A DNA stretch of 32,568 nt from a virus. A model generated the notes under the pieces. The model was not told the DNA's origin and did no database searches. It was given only the letters and a program-made list of their open reading frames with translations. Below are positions 6,871-31,959 of the stretch, in pieces (position 1 is the first letter of the stretch; each line of letters opens with the position of its first letter). A program made the position numbers and the translations under genes. The DNA lies in the IMG/VR virus record IMGVR_UViG_3300036466_000103, positions 64,001-96,568 of that record; one strand, written 5' to 3'.

Positions 6871-6892
6871 AAACCCCGCTAATGCGGGGCTA
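6871..6892 (-). terminator. Terminator at end of leftward operon
   Basis: Read leftward, GCCCCGC, loop ATTA, GCGGGGTTTC. The stem (6874-6879 / 6884-6889) overlaps the last codons of the 398-aa gene, so it ends the long leftward transcript. Confidence 0.7.
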
Positions 6893-8075
6893 GTAAACAA
6901 CTTCTACTATCCCAGAGGGCAACCACAACCATGTCAGTGGTGTCTATTCCAAAATGCCTTAGAGTTTGTAGGAATGTATAGTTTTTCTGGGATTTCACTG
7001 TGTTAGCTCGCTTAGGGTCAATACCGAAACTTATCCATAAGTCTTTGACTGACATCTTAACTCCATTGAATTCAACAGAGCGAACCCTCTCAGGCACCAA
7101 CTGCACAGCCTCCTCGAAAGGTATGCCCAAACGACTCTGCGCCCCTTCTACCCTGCTTTTAGATGTCCCATAGTGCTTGCACCAATCCTCTTTATACTTT
7201 GACACACCATCAATCGTATAAAGAGTCCTCCCATCATGCTTTGGATGCTCACGTATCAACTTGATCAGCTTGCTTAGGTTGTTATTACACTTATCTATAT
7301 AAAGATTCAGGAGGGCAGAGGATACATGAAGGTAGTCCGAAATCTCATCCTTACTTGTAAACTGATACCAAACCCCATCACTTGTGGTCATGACATAGGC
7401 TGGACTTTGAGGCTTTTCATTATACACAAGACAAGCATATAAAGAAGAGTCCTTCCAGCCACTGCTCGGGCTTAACCTAGTAACTACAGTTTTATAGTCT
7501 ACATCATACTCCTTGCAAAGAAGCTTCAGAGACAATTCATTACCGTCCGAATCAACCACCACCTTACCCTGCAAAGAAATCTCGCGGAGTCTTAGTATTT
7601 CATCAATATCAGTGATACCCTCACGAATTCGCGCATAAGCAAAAGAATAGGCAGCAATATCCTCCCTGAAAAACTCTTTGATGCGCACGTAGAAGCCTTT
7701 GTATGTGGCATACAGATTGCCTGTCCCTGTGAACAAACGGTTGACGCTCTGATGCAGGAATAAGCAAGTGTCAGGACCATACACCTTATTGCCATCAAAC
7801 ATGAAATCTTTATCTAGGGCTTTACCTTCCCAATCTTGTTCAACCATCCAGCCCCTGAAGGCCATAAAGCTCCACCACCTCTCATCTACAGTGCAACCAA
7901 TATACGTTTTGTTATTCCTTTGGTATGCCGGAGAGTAGCATCTAGCGAACATGTTCTTCCACACCTTGTAGAAAGGACACCTCCACTCAACTCCATTAGC
8001 ATCCCGTATGCTGACTTGGTAATCAGCATCATTGATCCCAACACCGTAGATAGTTCTATTCTTTCTCTTTTTCAC
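6879..8075 (-). CDS. Homing-endonuclease-like or DNA-binding protein (398 aa)
   Basis: GTG start at 8075 with AGGAGGGG just upstream. Residues about 30-130 carry the layout of a widespread phage nuclease-like domain: W-x-x-M-F-x-R-C-Y, Y-x-G-C-T-V-x-x-R-W, a GKALDKDF segment, then KVYGPDTC and VNRLF. This resembles HNH-associated proteins, but I do not see a full HNH triad. The rest holds three spaced copies of a helix-turn-helix-like unit of the form K-x-x-C/W-K-x-Y/F-G/D-x-x-x-x-x-V (near LLCKEYDVDYKTVVTRL, DWCKHYGTSKSRVEGAQSRL and DLWISFGIDPKRANTV), as in modular DNA-binding tails of homing enzymes. Last gene of the leftward operon. Selfish endonuclease or regulator; undecided. Confidence 0.75.
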   Translation of the reverse strand: MKKRKNRTIYGVGINDADYQVSIRDANGVEWRCPFYKVWKNMFARCYSPAYQRNNKTYIGCTVDERWWSFMAFRGWMVEQDWEGKALDKDFMFDGNKVYGPDTCLFLHQSVNRLFTGTGNLYATYKGFYVRIKEFFREDIAAYSFAYARIREGITDIDEILRLREISLQGKVVVDSDGNELSLKLLCKEYDVDYKTVVTRLSPSSGWKDSSLYACLVYNEKPQSPAYVMTTSDGVWYQFTSKDEISDYLHVSSALLNLYIDKCNNNLSKLIKLIREHPKHDGRTLYTIDGVSKYKEDWCKHYGTSKSRVEGAQSRLGIPFEEAVQLVPERVRSVEFNGVKMSVKDLWISFGIDPKRANTVKSQKNYTFLQTLRHFGIDTTDMVVVALWDSRSCLLAPH

Positions 8076-15040: not shown

Positions 15041-16300
15041 TCACATGCTAGGTGTGAATGCACCATTAATTACGGAGCCCTCACGAATAACCTTGCCTGC
15101 TGGGAATTGACAAATCAGCGAGTCCTTGTATCGAGCTTGGTAGGATACGGTCATCCATTTACCAATGTAGTCTCCTTTGTTTTCAAGAGCCTCTTTACGA
15201 AATTGCATATCACCCATGACACAGCTAAAGGTGTTTGGTGCAAGATCATTCTGTAGGACAAACACAGCGTTTCCTTGCTTATCCTTCACAACATCAAGGA
15301 TCTGAAACTCACTATCGAACATTAGTTTATACTTGAACAAGCCACTAGACCGTTTACCACTCTCATACAAACCGCCCGGTAAGCGATACATGATTCCTTC
15401 ATACCCACGACTAATGCAGTCTTTAAGTTGAGATGTAAGATCCTCTACAGAGTAAGCTGTGCGATATTTAACCTCCACAAGTGAGGGATAGCCCTCAAAT
15501 CGCTGCCCAATTTCCTTCAGTGTAGACAGACGCTCATCAAAAGGAACTTCAAGCTGCGCAACATCAAATACGTGGAACTCTAGTTTACTGCGTAGGTCAG
15601 CAATCGCATGGGCATTATTCAATTCACCGACAAGTCCAAGATATTTCTGTGGATCACTTGCAGCGAGTCCTTTGTTGATTGCGACTGCTAACTTCTTTTC
15701 GGCTTCCTTGATCTTAGCTTGAGGGTCTGTACGTTGGACAGCAGAGTTGATGTCTTGAAGCACAGGACCATACAAGAAAGCCTCCCCATCAAAAACCTCT
15801 CCTGGATTCATAACCTCAAGTAGCTGTGCTTCGATGTGAGGGATTGAAATAGCTTGACCTGTGCGTGACTGTAGACTAACTTCTTTAACGTCTCCTACAA
15901 GCTTGCAGACAGCCATGAGACGAATTCCGTCCAACTTATCCGAGGTAAACACACCATTTTCAATGTCTGAGTCTTTACCTGCCTTGGTGTGATCTTTAGC
16001 CAACATGGCGAGGATGGGAAGCTCATCAAGCTCCTCTTTAGAGAAACGATAACCTTTATCCAATTGAATCTTAATACGAGACTCAGCCTCAAACACAGCT
16101 TGCTGATATGCACTACGCCCTTGCTTACCCTCTGTGAAGAACTCAAGCTTCTCAGTGAGCTTACCATTCTCTTTGCCGTGCTTGATTGCTAGAACATTAC
16201 GCTCCACTTGCTCAACATGACAAATGTACTGCTTGGCTGTGACACCCCAAACCTTATAAGACTTGTCTTTATTCAGACCAAACATCTGCTTACTGAACAT
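15041..16300 (-). CDS. ATP-dependent DNA ligase (419 aa)
   Basis: The adenylation-domain motifs are present in order: SDKLDGIR with the nucleophile Lys122, VFDGEAFLYG (III, about 169-178), FHVFDV (IIIa, about 242), YEGIMYR (IV, 300-306) and GLFKYK (V, 320-325). The last ~90 residues fit an OB domain (GKWMTVSYQARY...). The enzyme seals nicks in duplex DNA through a Lys-AMP intermediate. Residues about 13-84 precede the core and look like a WGR-type domain (KVWGV, HGKENGKLTEKLEFF, then a helix ending LDKGY). The ATG at 16300 overlaps the upstream gene by 11 bases; an ATG seven codons earlier lies deeper in it. Confidence 0.93.
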   Translation of the reverse strand: MFSKQMFGLNKDKSYKVWGVTAKQYICHVEQVERNVLAIKHGKENGKLTEKLEFFTEGKQGRSAYQQAVFEAESRIKIQLDKGYRFSKEELDELPILAMLAKDHTKAGKDSDIENGVFTSDKLDGIRLMAVCKLVGDVKEVSLQSRTGQAISIPHIEAQLLEVMNPGEVFDGEAFLYGPVLQDINSAVQRTDPQAKIKEAEKKLAVAINKGLAASDPQKYLGLVGELNNAHAIADLRSKLEFHVFDVAQLEVPFDERLSTLKEIGQRFEGYPSLVEVKYRTAYSVEDLTSQLKDCISRGYEGIMYRLPGGLYESGKRSSGLFKYKLMFDSEFQILDVVKDKQGNAVFVLQNDLAPNTFSCVMGDMQFRKEALENKGDYIGKWMTVSYQARYKDSLICQFPAGKVIREGSVINGAFTPSM

Positions 16301-16538
16301 CTTCAATCTTCTCCATTTCAACAGTGTAGCCCATAAGGGACTGATCAGTGTACACGAATTTAAGTCGGTAGTTGTTAAAATCTACAAATGGATTCTGCAA
16401 CACCCACTGAGCCACGTAACACTCCTGGTTATCATACAAGAATTTACGAGCTTGTGCCATCATTTCCTCTCGACTCTTACCAACCAATTGCTGAGCCTTG
16501 AAAATCTCATCAAGGTCAGCTTGTTTAATGTCGATCAT
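16290..16538 (-). CDS. Small hypothetical protein (82 aa)
   Basis: The start at ATG 16538 overlaps the upstream stop (ATGA). The first 50 residues are helical (DLDEIFKAQQLVGKSREEMM), the rest strand-like (YRLKFVYTDQSLMGYTVEME). It precedes the ligase with an 11-base overlap. No family recognised. Confidence 0.7.
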   Translation of the reverse strand: MIDIKQADLDEIFKAQQLVGKSREEMMAQARKFLYDNQECYVAQWVLQNPFVDFNNYRLKFVYTDQSLMGYTVEMEKIEDVQ

Positions 16539-21144: not shown

Positions 21145-22245
21145 TTACTTCAAGTGTTCTTCAACAAGCTTTACCTTGCGATTTGTCTCAAGTGACATAA
21201 TGACATCGCGAGGGCTTTTGTCAAGCTTTCTTGCAGAGAACATGACAGCGGAGAGCTTTGGTGCATTAGACATCACGGCTTGCGCAAACTCTTTCTGACC
21301 TTCGATGTTTTTGATTTCAACGTAAATTTCTGTAGCAGACTCAACAACACCCCTCCAGACAGACTCAATCTCACGGATACGATCACCATACTCAGGGAAG
21401 TAGGAGATTACCTCATCAGACTCTCCTGTAACTACAACCGGAATCAATGCACTGTCACGTCCCATATTCATGGAATCACGTAGGTGGTGTACAGCAACAT
21501 ACTCAGGAGACTTAATCTTTGAAACCGGAACACCATCCTGGTATACAACAAAACCTTCATCAAGGTCTTTAAGCTCACGAGCAGTCTTCAGGCAGTCATC
21601 TACTGTATTGAATCGATATTCTTTAATCTCGTGCGCACCAAACATTAGAGCTTGACCTTTCTCAGACTTAATGTGGTCACCAGAAAAGTTCCCACGGCAA
21701 GCCAGATAATGCAGTTTGTAGCCTTCATAACACTTGACAACACGATTTTCTACACTTGTTAGTTCGAAGATATAAGTGAATCCTTCAAAAAGAAATGTGT
21801 TGCACTTACTTTGGAAGTGATTATCGTCTTCACAAGAAAGAGCCTTAAGCACAAGCTCACGGAATGTAACACCAAAGCCCATGCAATCGCTCTCACCATA
21901 CACTGTACCCTTGGTGGAGATGTTCCAGCGACCTTTATGGTAGTATATCTTGATCAGGCTACCGTCCACCTTCTCGTACACCACAGCACGACCCCAATCA
22001 ATTTCAGGGGTAACATTTAAAGCCTCGCCATGGTTGAAGAATCGTGAGAACGAACGACTAACCACTTCAAGTGTATCAGACTGAAGGATTAAGGATCGAC
22101 ATTCCATAACGATTGGGTCAGTCTTGGGGCTGTCAATCTGGTTGTAGTTCAACATCAGGAGGTCATCCACTTTCTTTACGCTGATTGCGTATTGCTCGGT
22201 AAGAGCTTGCAACCCATTTTCTTTGATAAATTCAATCACTTTCAT
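21145..22245 (-). CDS. rnl1: T4-type RNA ligase 1 (366 aa)
   Basis: The Rnl1 nucleotidyltransferase signature is complete. MECRSLILQ (47-55) and SFSRFFNHGEA precede the active-site motif YEKVDGSLIKIYY with nucleophile Lys92. Further motifs are WNISTKG, FEGFTYIFELTSVENRVV (motif IIIa/IV region), DLDEGFVVYQDG and VSKIKSPEYVAVHHLRDS (motif V lysines). T4 Rnl1 is 374 aa. It joins a 3'-OH and 5'-PO4 of broken RNA through ligase-AMP. First gene of the leftward operon, with a divergent promoter region upstream; Pnkp lies two genes downstream. Confidence 0.93.
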   Translation of the reverse strand: MKVIEFIKENGLQALTEQYAISVKKVDDLLMLNYNQIDSPKTDPIVMECRSLILQSDTLEVVSRSFSRFFNHGEALNVTPEIDWGRAVVYEKVDGSLIKIYYHKGRWNISTKGTVYGESDCMGFGVTFRELVLKALSCEDDNHFQSKCNTFLFEGFTYIFELTSVENRVVKCYEGYKLHYLACRGNFSGDHIKSEKGQALMFGAHEIKEYRFNTVDDCLKTARELKDLDEGFVVYQDGVPVSKIKSPEYVAVHHLRDSMNMGRDSALIPVVVTGESDEVISYFPEYGDRIREIESVWRGVVESATEIYVEIKNIEGQKEFAQAVMSNAPKLSAVMFSARKLDKSPRDVIMSLETNRKVKLVEEHLK

Positions 22246-26775: not shown

Positions 26776-28665
26776 ATGGCTATTACAACTCGTGATGAAC
26801 TAGTGGAAGCTCTGGTAGTTGGTGGCATTGTTGGCATTGCTCGTGACGGTGAATTGGATGCGTTGTTTAACCAAGGCAGTGCTGATGTTGATGCTAGCAT
26901 TATTGAGCTGACCCGGGATGTGGCCACAGCGCAATCCACCGCTGATGCCGCCCAGGTTAAATTGGTTCCTGGGTCGAACATCACTATTGATGACACTGAC
27001 CCGCAAGCCCCGGTCATCAGTGCAACTGGTGGCGGGGAAGGTGGCTCTTCTACATGGGGATCAATTACCGGAACTCTTTCGGCCCAGACCGATTTGCAGG
27101 CGGAGCTTGATAGGAATCTGCGAAAGCCTCGCAAGACTTTCAGCAAGCTTTTCAACTCCGCATCTGCCATCAGCCATCTGCGGCTGGCTATTCTTGGTGA
27201 CAGCTTGGCCGGGGCAAAAATGCTTCAGCTCAACGCCTCACTGGATCGCCGGATGGGCGGGGTTAACATGAGTGGCGTCAATAGTTCTGGCACTGCGGAC
27301 GGTACGCCGACTGGTGGCTATGACTTGACGTTGAGCGCTGGCACCCTCGTTACGGCAGAAACGCTCAAATATCAGTATTGGCCTACCGGGCTTGTCAGCC
27401 TGTTCGCCGACGGAGGCTCAGCCACCTGGATACGCAGCGGCTCCTCGCCGACCTTTACTGATGTGAAGGTGTATTACATCAAAGAGCCCTCCGCAGGCAC
27501 GCTGAACCTTTCCGTCGGCGGTAACGTCGTGGCAACCGTCTCCGCTGCCGCTGATGTGACTGGTCTTGGCGTTTTGTCCTACACGCAAGCAGTGGGTACT
27601 TCCGCTGTGCTGACTACCGTTTCTGGTGGACCGGTACGTATCGTCCTTGTGCACACCCGCAATACCACCGTATCCGGTCTTGACCTGTATCAGACCATGA
27701 ACCGTGGCGGACTGTTGTTGGCCGATGCAACGGCATCCGCGCAGGGGCGATCAATCTGGCAGCAGGCACTGACTGACATTAACGCGGACCTCATCACGTT
27801 TGAGATGGACGACGACTTCGGCGATAGCGGCGCTGCGGACGCCTCACTTGCGTTGTTGGTTGGGATTATCGACGCGTCAAGTCCATACGCTGACAAGCTC
27901 TTCATTGGTTCGACTCCTCGTGCGTTGAACGACAATTTGAAAATGCGTTCGTCGCAGTACCTCAAGGAGTTTTGCGGGGCCCAAAACGCCTCTTATCTTT
28001 TCTTTGACAGCTATTACCTGATGGGTACGTATGCTGAGATGGACGCGATTTTCGGCACCGATGACGGTACGCATCCGACTGCAGCGGCTCAGGCTTACGC
28101 CGCAGAAATTCTTTGGGAGTTCTTGGGGCTCAATGGCTTCAACCTCGGTATGACTTCCCGTGCAGTCAATGACCGTGGAACGCCGTCCCGTATGGCGCGT
28201 GGTACGACCATTGGCGACCGCCCTGGCCGTGAAATCTCGATCACCGCTGACGCATCTACTGGGTCTGACTTTGCAATCAACTTAACGCGCTCTCTGGCCG
28301 TCGTGAGAACCGACGGAACGATCCTGCACCGCGTATCAGGTCAGGTTGGCGTTATCTCTAACGTGTTGCCAATGACAACTGACTTCGGGACGGCTGGTGA
28401 CGTCAGGAAGCGTAACGTAGTTACTTCGTCTGGCGTTGAGGTCACTCAGCTAGTTAAGACTGACAACCCTAGTGGCATGCAACACATGCGTATGGGTTTG
28501 ATCTTCAATAGCTTTACACGTGCTCAACTGTTAGCTATTAGCGCATCTAGCAATATTGGAGCGCTGGCATTTTGCTCGGACTGCACAGGTGGTGCGCAGT
28601 GGGTATTCGCAAAGGGATCTAGCGCTACAGATTGGGTAACGGTAGATGGCAAGACGGCCATCTAA
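26776..28665 (+). CDS. Tail fibre / tailspike with SGNH-hydrolase domain (629 aa)
   Basis: Residues 1-115 are a typical fibre attachment part: a helical start, the GSNITIDDTDPQAPVIS stretch, a glycine linker (GGGEGG) and WGSITGTLSAQTDLQAELD. Residues about 134-450 fit an SGNH (GDSL) esterase: LAILGDSLAG with Ser143 in block I, and GTDDGTHPTAAAQ with the Asp430/His433 pair in block V. Such domains deacetylate surface glycans. The last ~170 residues are probably trimeric beta structure. GAGGAAAC precedes the ATG. The gene is far richer in G+C than its neighbours, which marks recent acquisition. Confidence 0.88.
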   Translation: MAITTRDELVEALVVGGIVGIARDGELDALFNQGSADVDASIIELTRDVATAQSTADAAQVKLVPGSNITIDDTDPQAPVISATGGGEGGSSTWGSITGTLSAQTDLQAELDRNLRKPRKTFSKLFNSASAISHLRLAILGDSLAGAKMLQLNASLDRRMGGVNMSGVNSSGTADGTPTGGYDLTLSAGTLVTAETLKYQYWPTGLVSLFADGGSATWIRSGSSPTFTDVKVYYIKEPSAGTLNLSVGGNVVATVSAAADVTGLGVLSYTQAVGTSAVLTTVSGGPVRIVLVHTRNTTVSGLDLYQTMNRGGLLLADATASAQGRSIWQQALTDINADLITFEMDDDFGDSGAADASLALLVGIIDASSPYADKLFIGSTPRALNDNLKMRSSQYLKEFCGAQNASYLFFDSYYLMGTYAEMDAIFGTDDGTHPTAAAQAYAAEILWEFLGLNGFNLGMTSRAVNDRGTPSRMARGTTIGDRPGREISITADASTGSDFAINLTRSLAVVRTDGTILHRVSGQVGVISNVLPMTTDFGTAGDVRKRNVVTSSGVEVTQLVKTDNPSGMQHMRMGLIFNSFTRAQLLAISASSNIGALAFCSDCTGGAQWVFAKGSSATDWVTVDGKTAI

Positions 28666-28866: not shown

Positions 28867-28895
28867 TTGACAAAAATATGATAAATATATAACAT
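28867..28895 (+). promoter_or_regulatory. Promoter for terminase genes
   Basis: GGTATTGACA: -35 TTGACA (28867-28872), 17-nt spacer, -10 TAACAT (28890-28895), thirty bases upstream of the terminase small-subunit start. Confidence 0.75.
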
Positions 28896-29374: not shown

Positions 29375-29389
29375 TTTAGGAGAAATTGT

Positions 29390-29614
29390 ATGGAAAACCA
29401 ACATCGTAAAATTACAGGCTATCGTGAACTCTCACAAGAAGAAATCAATTTGATGAACACCATCAAATCAGAGGGTGAACGCCTTGGTTCAATCATCGTT
29501 GACTTGAAAGCTAACACTGAGCTTGATCAACGTTGGGTCAGTATTGCAGAGACTTATCTTCAACAAGGTATCATGGCTGCTGTACGCTCTGTAGCTCAAC
29601 CAAGCACATTCTGA
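29390..29614 (+). CDS. acb2: Acb2/Tad1-hairpin type protein, putative anti-CBASS sponge (74 aa)
   Basis: The sequence ITGYRELSQEEINLMNTIKS, then a short linker, then DQRWVSIAETYLQQGIMAAV and RSVAQPSTF matches the layout I associate with the Acb2/Tad1 helical-hairpin family: GYREL-x-x-E-E at the start, D-x-R-W in the middle, L-Q-x-G-x-M-A-x-x-R-x-V-A-x-P at the end. Acb2 proteins are small hexameric sponges that bind cyclic oligonucleotides and so block CBASS defence. TTAGGAG precedes the ATG. Placed among packaging genes, it would be co-expressed with them. Identification is from pattern memory, without alignment. Confidence 0.75.
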   Translation: MENQHRKITGYRELSQEEINLMNTIKSEGERLGSIIVDLKANTELDQRWVSIAETYLQQGIMAAVRSVAQPSTF

Positions 29615-29625
29615 GGAGAAATATT

Positions 29626-30084
29626 ATGACAGAAGAAGTTATTGAAAAAGTTAAACAATATAAGATTAGTGTTGGTGGTACAGACTCTCTTGGTATGAAC
29701 TTCGTAGAGAACGTTGTAGCCCTTGCAAACCTTGGTGCTGTTATCCAAGAAGGCACACACCCAACAATGCGATTCCCCCACGGTGTATGGATGACCCTTG
29801 AGTCTAGTACCCCACCAACCCCTAGTGCCTGTGTTCGAGTATTTGAGCAACCATCTAACAAAGAAATCTTTGCAATCTTTGTTTCCCCTAAAAGCTCCGA
29901 GTTCTCGTTAGATGCAGATAGTGGTGACACAGATCTTAGTACAAATGCTGGTGTTCCCTGGACTAAAGAACAGCTCTTGTCTATGGACTTCGACACTCAA
30001 CTACGAGCAGTATGTAAGAGTGTAGGGATTATTGGTCGAAGTAAAGATAAGATGATTAAAGATTATCTTGCTAAATTTGAATGA
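29626..30084 (+). CDS. Hypothetical protein (152 aa)
   Basis: The ATG at 29626 follows GAGGAG. It begins with a charged helix (MTEEVIEKVKQYKISVGGTD), has strands in the middle (MRFPHGVWMTLESSTPPTPS), an acidic linker (LDADSGDTDLS) and a C-terminal helical part (TQLRAVCKSVGIIGRSKDKM then IKDYLAKFE) that looks like a SAP/LEM-type helix pair. Lies between the Acb2-like gene and the terminase. Function unknown. Confidence 0.78.
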   Translation: MTEEVIEKVKQYKISVGGTDSLGMNFVENVVALANLGAVIQEGTHPTMRFPHGVWMTLESSTPPTPSACVRVFEQPSNKEIFAIFVSPKSSEFSLDADSGDTDLSTNAGVPWTKEQLLSMDFDTQLRAVCKSVGIIGRSKDKMIKDYLAKFE

Positions 30085-30089
30085 TTGTA

Positions 30090-30118
30090 TTGACAAAATA
30101 TACAATTAGTCATAAAAT
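30090..30118 (+). promoter_or_regulatory. Promoter for terminase large subunit
   Basis: TGTATTGACA: -35 TTGACA (30090-30095), 17-nt spacer, -10 TAAAAT (30113-30118). It shares the box with the promoters at 24606 and 24980. Confidence 0.75.
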
Positions 30119-30177: not shown

Positions 30178-31959
30178 ATGACGGAAGTTAATATGGTGCG
30201 CCCACAATCCCCCTTTCAAGAAAAGTATTTAAAGTCTAATGCTAAGATACTTGTAGTCGGTGGTGCCGCAGGTAGCAGTAAGAGCTACGTTGGTCTTATG
30301 CGGCACCTAAGATGGGCGCATGATCCGAATTACAATGGTTACTGTATTCGAAAGAACAGTACAACATTGATGAAAGCAGGCGGGTTGTTCCAAGAAGCAA
30401 TCGCCCTGTATCAAAAAGTTTATCCTGATTTGAAGATCAAATGGAAAGACCAGAAGTTGGTATTTCCTAGTGGAGCATCTGTATCCTTTTCTCACTATGA
30501 AAATGATGCAGCCGGACAACAGTATCAAGGTCTTCAGTTATCAAATGTCTTTTATGACGAAGCAACACACGCAGCAGAAGAACATATCTGGTGGCTTGTG
30601 TCACGTCTTCGTACAGCAGCAAAACTAAACCCTTCCATCTGGTTATCTTGCAACCCTGACCCTGACAGCTTCTTGTTCGACTGGGTTAAATGGTGGTTGT
30701 ATCCAGAAGGTCATCCACAACACGGTATCCCAGATCCAGAGCGTAACGGAATCACACGATTCTGTCTTCGTATTGCTGGTGATATGGTTTGGGCTGATAG
30801 CCCCGAAGAGTTGATTGAGAAACACGGTAAAAAGGATTTACCAGCAGATCATGAAGATCAAGTTAAGCCAATTGCATTTCAAGTTTTGCTTGGGAATTTA
30901 ACTGATAATCCCACGTTGATGAAGATGCAGCCAGAATACAAGTCCAACCTTGAGGCTTTGCCTGATGTTGAGATGCGTAGACTGCTTCTTGGTGACTGGA
31001 CTGCAAGGGAGGAGGGTAGTACATACTTCCAACGATCCTGGTGTGGTGAGGAAGCCTTAGAGGATCCTCCAGCATCTGAGATTGTTCGTACGGTTAGAGC
31101 GTATGACTTCGCAGGGACATTGAAGTCCTCAGCTAACCCAAGTCCTGACTATACAGCATGTGCAAAGATTAGCAAGCTGAAGTCTGGAGACTATTTCATA
31201 CATGAGATTGTTCGTACACGAATACTGTACGGTGACTGGGAGAGATTCATCCTAGACAACGCACAACGTGATGGGAAGAACTGTGAGATTGTTATCCCGC
31301 TTGATCCTGGTGCATCAGCTAAAGTGGCTACAGCACTCCTCACAAGATCAATTAGTGAGAGAGGTTATAGAGTGAGGACAATGAAGGCTAGCCAATCTAA
31401 GCTTGATCGCTTCCGTCCATTCTCATCTTTGGCTATGAATGGTCACGTTAAGTTCCTTAAAGGATGTTCTACAGACCTTGAGAATAATGTGTACGGGAAC
31501 AACAGTTTCATGTACAGAGAACTTGAAGCCTTCAATGGTAAGAGGCGTGGTGGTGAAGCAGGACATGACGATAAAAACCGGTCGTCAATAAACTTACTTA
31601 ATTCGGTGGAACCCTAAATCATTCGGTTTAGACAATACCGAGCTAGGGCTTATAGATTGTAAGCCTGAGTGTAACGACTATCGAAAGCACATCTTATGAT
31701 GGAAGCAAGTAGAGTACACCCAAGTGGGTGGAAACAGTGAGGACGACCTACATGGGTTGTTAAGATATAGTCTGCTCTGCATGGTGACATGCAGCAGTTC
31801 ATAAGAGAACGGGCAATGTCTAACGAGCATTGTTGAACATAAAGGATCTGTGACTGCATTAGTGACGCTACAGCAATTCTAGCACAAAGAACAATAGTTC
31901 CAAACATGGCAAAGGCATTAGGTAGTATTAACCTAGTAAACAAATCTCCATTTAACTAA
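30178..31959 (+). CDS. terL: Terminase large subunit, split by a group I intron (502 aa spliced)
   Basis: Exon 1 is 30178-31572 (465 codons) and exon 2 is 31846-31959 (37 codons plus stop). The ATPase domain has Walker A GGAAGSSKS (28-36), Walker B VFYDEAT (124-130) and the coupling motif WLSCNPD (155-161). The nuclease domain starts at RAYDFAGT with Asp310, continues at PLDPGAS with Asp376 and ends with GHDD (462-465). Splicing gives GHDD-ICDCISDATAIL, restoring the third conserved acidic cluster of the RNase-H-like nuclease. The protein powers DNA packaging and cuts the genome concatemer. Unspliced translation would end 14 codons into the intron, lacking this motif. Confidence 0.93.
31573..31845 (+). 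ncRNA. Group I self-splicing intron without ORF (273 nt)
   Basis: Exon 1 ends UGACGAU and the intron guide GUCGUCA (31581-31587) pairs with all seven bases, with the U-G wobble at the splice site (P1). P4 TCGGT/ACCGA (31603/31637), P5 CTAAATC/GGTTTAG (31614/31625), P6 GGCTTA/TAAGCC (31647/31660), P7 GACTAT (31676-31681) with ATAGTC (31767-31772) inside the hallmark AAGATATAGTC. P9 is CTGC-GCATG-GTGA-CATGC-GCAG (31772-31797). The last base is G (31845). No homing endonuclease gene is present. Confidence 0.92.

Follow-up and report, generated by a model that had tools for sequence, protein, structure and literature searches.

A probable Acb2-family cyclic-nucleotide sponge encoded beside the terminase genes of a phage related to Pseudomonas phages phiPMW and SYP

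Results

Gene organization of the locus

The window, by which we mean the whole stretch of 32,568 nucleotides analysed here, forms the final 32.6 kb of a virus record that is 96.6 kb long. It contains, on the forward strand, a short gene referred to below as acb2, within a block whose order is DUF5681 gene, acb2, a gene for a 151-aa protein and the gene of the terminase large subunit (terL). The features of this block are the following.

28867-28895 (+): sigma70-like promoter motif, TTGACA-17-TAACAT, 5' of the terS-acb2 block; about 90 of 1000 shuffles reach its score
28925-29374 (+): DUF5681 protein of 149 aa (E=6.5e-8), probably the terminase small subunit, as judged solely from its position
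29376-29389 (+): ribosome-binding site region of acb2, with the sequence TTAGGAGAAATTGT
29390-29614 (+): acb2-type gene, 74 aa, PF24729 / PHROG 717, with predicted helices at residues 16-41 and 47-69
29629-30084 (+): conserved hypothetical protein of 151 aa, common to phiPMW and SYP
30090-30118 (+): sigma70-like promoter motif, TTGACA-17-TAAAAT, 5' of terL; 6 of 1000 shuffles reach its score
30178-31617 (+): first exon of the terminase large subunit gene, whose frame runs past GHDD and stops inside a group I intron

The acb2 reading frame starts with ATG, runs for 74 codons to a TGA stop and has an AGGAG ribosome-binding site directly 5' of it, so that start, ribosome-binding site and stop of the 74-aa frame originally predicted at this position are all present, as are all the motifs of the claimed layout (GYREL, DQRW and LQQGIMAAVRSVAQP) in its product. 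The gene occurs unchanged in an independent 11.5-kb contig (L002), which over 5743 bases aligned with this region of the window shows no substitution and a single gap, located in a tail-fibre-like gene. When acb2 is aligned without gaps to the L004 copy, changes at codon positions 1, 2 and 3 number 12, 12 and 42, and the corresponding figures for the copy of phage B8b are 20, 11 and 37. Third positions thus change more often than first and second ones, a pattern that indicates that the protein is under purifying selection, and acb2 is a real gene. The protein matches 273 phage records at E<=1, and a relative is encoded in 187 IMG/VR stretches.

A group I intron (RF00028, 54 bits) lies inside terL at positions 31499-31794 (L002 4661-4956), directly after the conserved GHDD, and the second terL exon (ICDCISDATAILAQR...), which matches phiPMW, was found in L002; the 479-aa TerL frame is therefore the first exon only. 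A further group I intron, scoring 96.8 bits, occupies L002 5901-6169, within the portal-like gene that comes next in this phage. The tail-fibre-like/GDSL-like gene at 26776-28665 has about 52% GC, against about 42% in its surroundings, and the L002 gap breaks its frame there, the contig being otherwise the same. Elsewhere in the window, the leftward strand encodes a 398-aa HNH endonuclease-like protein among small genes (6879-8075, phrog_953, E=6e-53), an ATP-dependent DNA ligase (15041-16321) and a T4-type RNA ligase 1 (21145-22245).

The window, phiPMW and SYP all carry one TTGACA-type motif 5' of the terS-like gene and another 5' of terL. Each of these six motifs is weak alone (in the shuffle test, about 9% for the terS motif of the window and 0.1-4% for the other five), but it is suggestive that they recur at corresponding places in three phages. 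A search of the window for the phage-specific promoter elements known from the phiPMW annotation, tolerating as many as 6 mismatches, found none.

The 74-aa protein belongs to the Acb2 hairpin family

Against the Pfam model PF24729 (Acb2/Tad1 hairpin), the search proposed along with the original prediction, the 74-aa protein scored 67.1 bits (E=1.5e-18), far above the curated cut-off of 27 and close to the positive controls T4 Vs.4 (71.4 bits) and gp26 of Pseudomonas phage 119X, an Acb2 of the PaP2 type (65.9 bits), while no match to the model occurred in 14 well-known control genomes. The Acb2-type identity thus stands. The protein was also assigned to PHROG 717 (E=5e-22), the group from which Jenson et al. 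(PMC10097602) took their Vs.4 homologues; no NCBIfam family was found for it. By single-sequence phmmer the match to T4 Vs.4 has an E-value of only 0.019, and a profile search was therefore needed to show the link: a profile built from 50 relatives matched only Acb2 p26 (E=2.6e-31) and Vs.4 (5e-8) in the PDB, in three distinct sequences, two of them Acb2 'p26' and one Vs.4.

Predicted fold and ligand pocket

The AlphaFold monomer model (mean pLDDT 90, with low confidence, pLDDT 60, for residues 1-10) consists of two long antiparallel helices, residues 16-41 and 47-69, with no added domain. Foldseek retrieved only Acb2 chains at E<=0.001, followed by Vs.4 (E 0.015-0.063), everything else having E>=1.4. 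VIA-align also gave middling scores for Rop, histidine-kinase and further helical hairpins, which we set aside as common two-helix geometry.

The closest solved counterpart in sequence is the Acb2 of PaP2 and 119X (gp26; PDB 8H2J, 8H2X and 8IXZ), 46% identical in alignment, which has in common with our protein a MENQH-KI-GYR start, the Y11 and K26 positions under the same numbers, and the RW, T, G-M, R and AQPxxF end; the Foldseek E-value is about 1e-4 and VIA-align superposes 72 residues with a Z of 8.6 and an rmsd of 2.3. The two differ in the loop between the long helices, which is 19 residues shorter here than in the solved PaP2 Acb2. T4 Vs.4 (PDB 7UQ2) is superposed over 72 residues with a Z of 8.8 and an rmsd of 2.6; identity in the alignment is 34%, and the loop is again shorter in the window protein.

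The residues of T4 Vs.4 that contact cGAMP are Y8, H11, K23, R79 and F82 (PMC10097602). In our alignment three of these are kept, as Y11, K26 and R66, and T55 corresponds to T68, the position at which a T68M change lowers the affinity of T4 Acb2 (PMC12657230). Y11 and R66 are invariant across 50 relatives, with K26 and T55 nearly so, and in a set of 84 relatives Y11 occurs in every sequence and K26 in 83. Positions A66, A73 and A77, which are among those of the Vs.4 hexamer interface (PMC10097602), are likewise occupied by small residues (A53, G60 and A64). The differences lie at H11, replaced by L14, and at the stacking residue F82, whose aromatic side chain has no equivalent here, A69 standing in its place. 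Alanine is also found there in the PaP2/119X-type Acb2, which binds cGAMP in the crystal (8H2J is the PaP2 protein with 3',3'-cGAMP, PMC11722364), so the phenylalanine marks the T4 branch, not the family as a whole, and its replacement is no argument against binding.

A length of 74 aa is the commonest among the 84 fetched relatives (39 of them), a count that refers to this set of closest sequences. We found no solved structure of the short-loop form.

The acb2 slot in the sister phages

The nearest genomes are those of the Pseudomonas phages phiPMW (Plaisancevirus) and SYP, and a Pseudomonas host is accordingly likely, judging from these relatives. Identity to phiPMW and SYP is, respectively, 83% and 72% for TerL, 54% and 59% for the terS-like protein, and 37% and 50% for the protein of about 150 aa. 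No PF24729 match exists in the whole records of phiPMW, SYP and Pseudomonas phage M1. With the same flanking order, the slot between the terS-like gene and the gene for a protein of about 140 aa is filled in phiPMW and SYP by a small gene (phiPMW gp124 and SYP gp156; P0002 and P0003) for a protein of 60-77 aa that is unrelated in sequence to Acb2. These two proteins are related to each other, and that of SYP matches the phage tail-tip family PF09327 (E=1e-8); the slot proteins (L083 4410-4592 and L082 4199-4432) resemble a detached piece of a gpJ-type tail-tip protein.

The best matches of acb2 itself lie elsewhere, in Pseudoalteromonas phage B8b and Vibrio phages 1.170.O, D479 and 1.193.O. 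These nearest copies, from marine Pseudoalteromonas and Vibrio phages, are 64-70% identical in alignment, and at the DNA level acb2 is about 70% identical to the B8b and 1.193.O copies. Because the flanks are kept in phiPMW and SYP and Acb2 is absent there, acb2 looks like a swapped cassette, and cassette exchange is the simplest reading of the slot. The gene was probably acquired by horizontal transfer, presumably as a gain here and not through loss in the sisters.

Placement across the family

The position of acb2 in a late gene cluster was called curious in the original prediction, a view that our comparison does not bear out. In seven of 16 annotated relatives, a chosen and not a random sample, the gene adjoins morphogenesis or lysis genes (terminase, portal, capsid, tail, lysis), as follows.

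PS6: acb2 relative between TerL and portal
1.204.O: acb2 relative near TerL
Zuri: acb2 relative near TerS/TerL
MD04: acb2 relative between portal and scaffold
1.087.A: acb2 relative between capsid block and tail sheath
5400: acb2 relative adjoins endolysin
CHOED: acb2 relative near tail fibre gene

In the remaining nine it lies with replication, nucleotide, tRNA or other genes; gp26 of 119X, for instance, is near DNA polymerase and primase, in contrast to the window gene by the terminase genes, and the neighbourhood of T4 Vs.4 is likewise different. TerL, the terS-like gene and the gene for the protein of about 150 aa were not found near IMG/VR acb2 relatives, except in the near-identical contig L002, which argues that the terminase-adjacent position does not reflect inherited linkage across the family. 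Moreover, since the terS-acb2 block has its own sigma70-like motif, late expression cannot be assumed, and the block may be transcribed separately from the other late genes.

Discussion

We are highly confident, from profile matches, conserved residues and the predicted fold, that the product of 29390-29614 is an Acb2-family cyclic-nucleotide sponge, carried as an accessory cassette. The original prediction annotates a gene of a known type correctly and is well supported; to it can be added the PaP2-like short-loop branch, the swap relative to the sister phages and the ordinary placement of the gene.

The name of the family model refers to Acb2 as well as to Tad1, and the model covers the hairpin of both, which raises the question whether the protein could be a Tad1-type sponge of the Thoeris signal gcADPR. 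Tad1 has this hairpin in common with our protein but carries a four-stranded N-terminal beta sheet ahead of its two helices (review PMC12043709), and both the sheet and gcADPR binding set it apart; in the AlphaFold model there is no strand, and only 15 residues precede helix 1, which starts at residue 16. As both the sequence and the fold matches in the PDB are confined to Acb2 and Vs.4, we regard a Tad1-type function as highly improbable: of the 'Acb2/Tad1 hairpin' originally proposed, the Acb2-type hairpin holds and the Tad1 type does not, 74 aa leaving no room for the extra beta domain. The location of the gene between the terS-like gene and terL, together with the relatives in PS6, 1.204.O and Zuri that adjoin terminase or portal genes, could instead suggest a packaging or head protein that has the Acb2 fold and works with the terminase. 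The sister phages nonetheless package their DNA without any family member, members elsewhere adjoin RecT, DNA polymerase, tRNA genes or thymidylate synthase, and the conserved residues include ligand contacts, all of which makes a role in packaging extremely doubtful.

It could further be asked whether this Acb2 has decayed and can no longer bind its ligands, a loss that has been proposed for T2 and observed for PaMx41, since natural loss of Acb2 function does occur and is favoured by the Panoptes defence (PMC12657218). Frame and pocket residues are intact, however, codon changes are of the purifying kind and an identical copy exists in a second assembly, and an inactive protein is thus very unlikely. 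A broader proposal would be that small counter-defence genes are swapped at the terS-like/terL slot of these Plaisancevirus-like phages, phiPMW gp124 and SYP gp156 being alternative inhibitors, and that the short-loop Acb2 has a ligand preference of its own; we consider it an unlikely, speculative extension.

An active Acb2-family sponge would, by analogy with characterised relatives, assemble as a hexamer and bind cyclic dinucleotides made by host CD-NTases, and probably also cyclic trinucleotides at a separate site. Nucleotides captured in this way would be withheld from CBASS effectors, for example phospholipases or NucC, and the infected cell would thereby not kill itself. Relief of cA3-dependent type III CRISPR signalling, suggested for Acb2 in a review (PMC12043709), may be a further effect. 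Carrying Acb2 may at the same time involve a counter-risk in the form of Panoptes, a defence in which removal of its decoy nucleotide by Acb2 leads to membrane disruption (PMC12657218).

The acb2 gene described here would bring a characterised family of immune-evasion proteins into a phage group in which the sequenced relatives are without Acb2, and its product represents the common short-loop form of the family. The phage and its sisters would offer a clean with/without pair, both for CBASS escape and for Panoptes, a defence that is triggered by Acb2.
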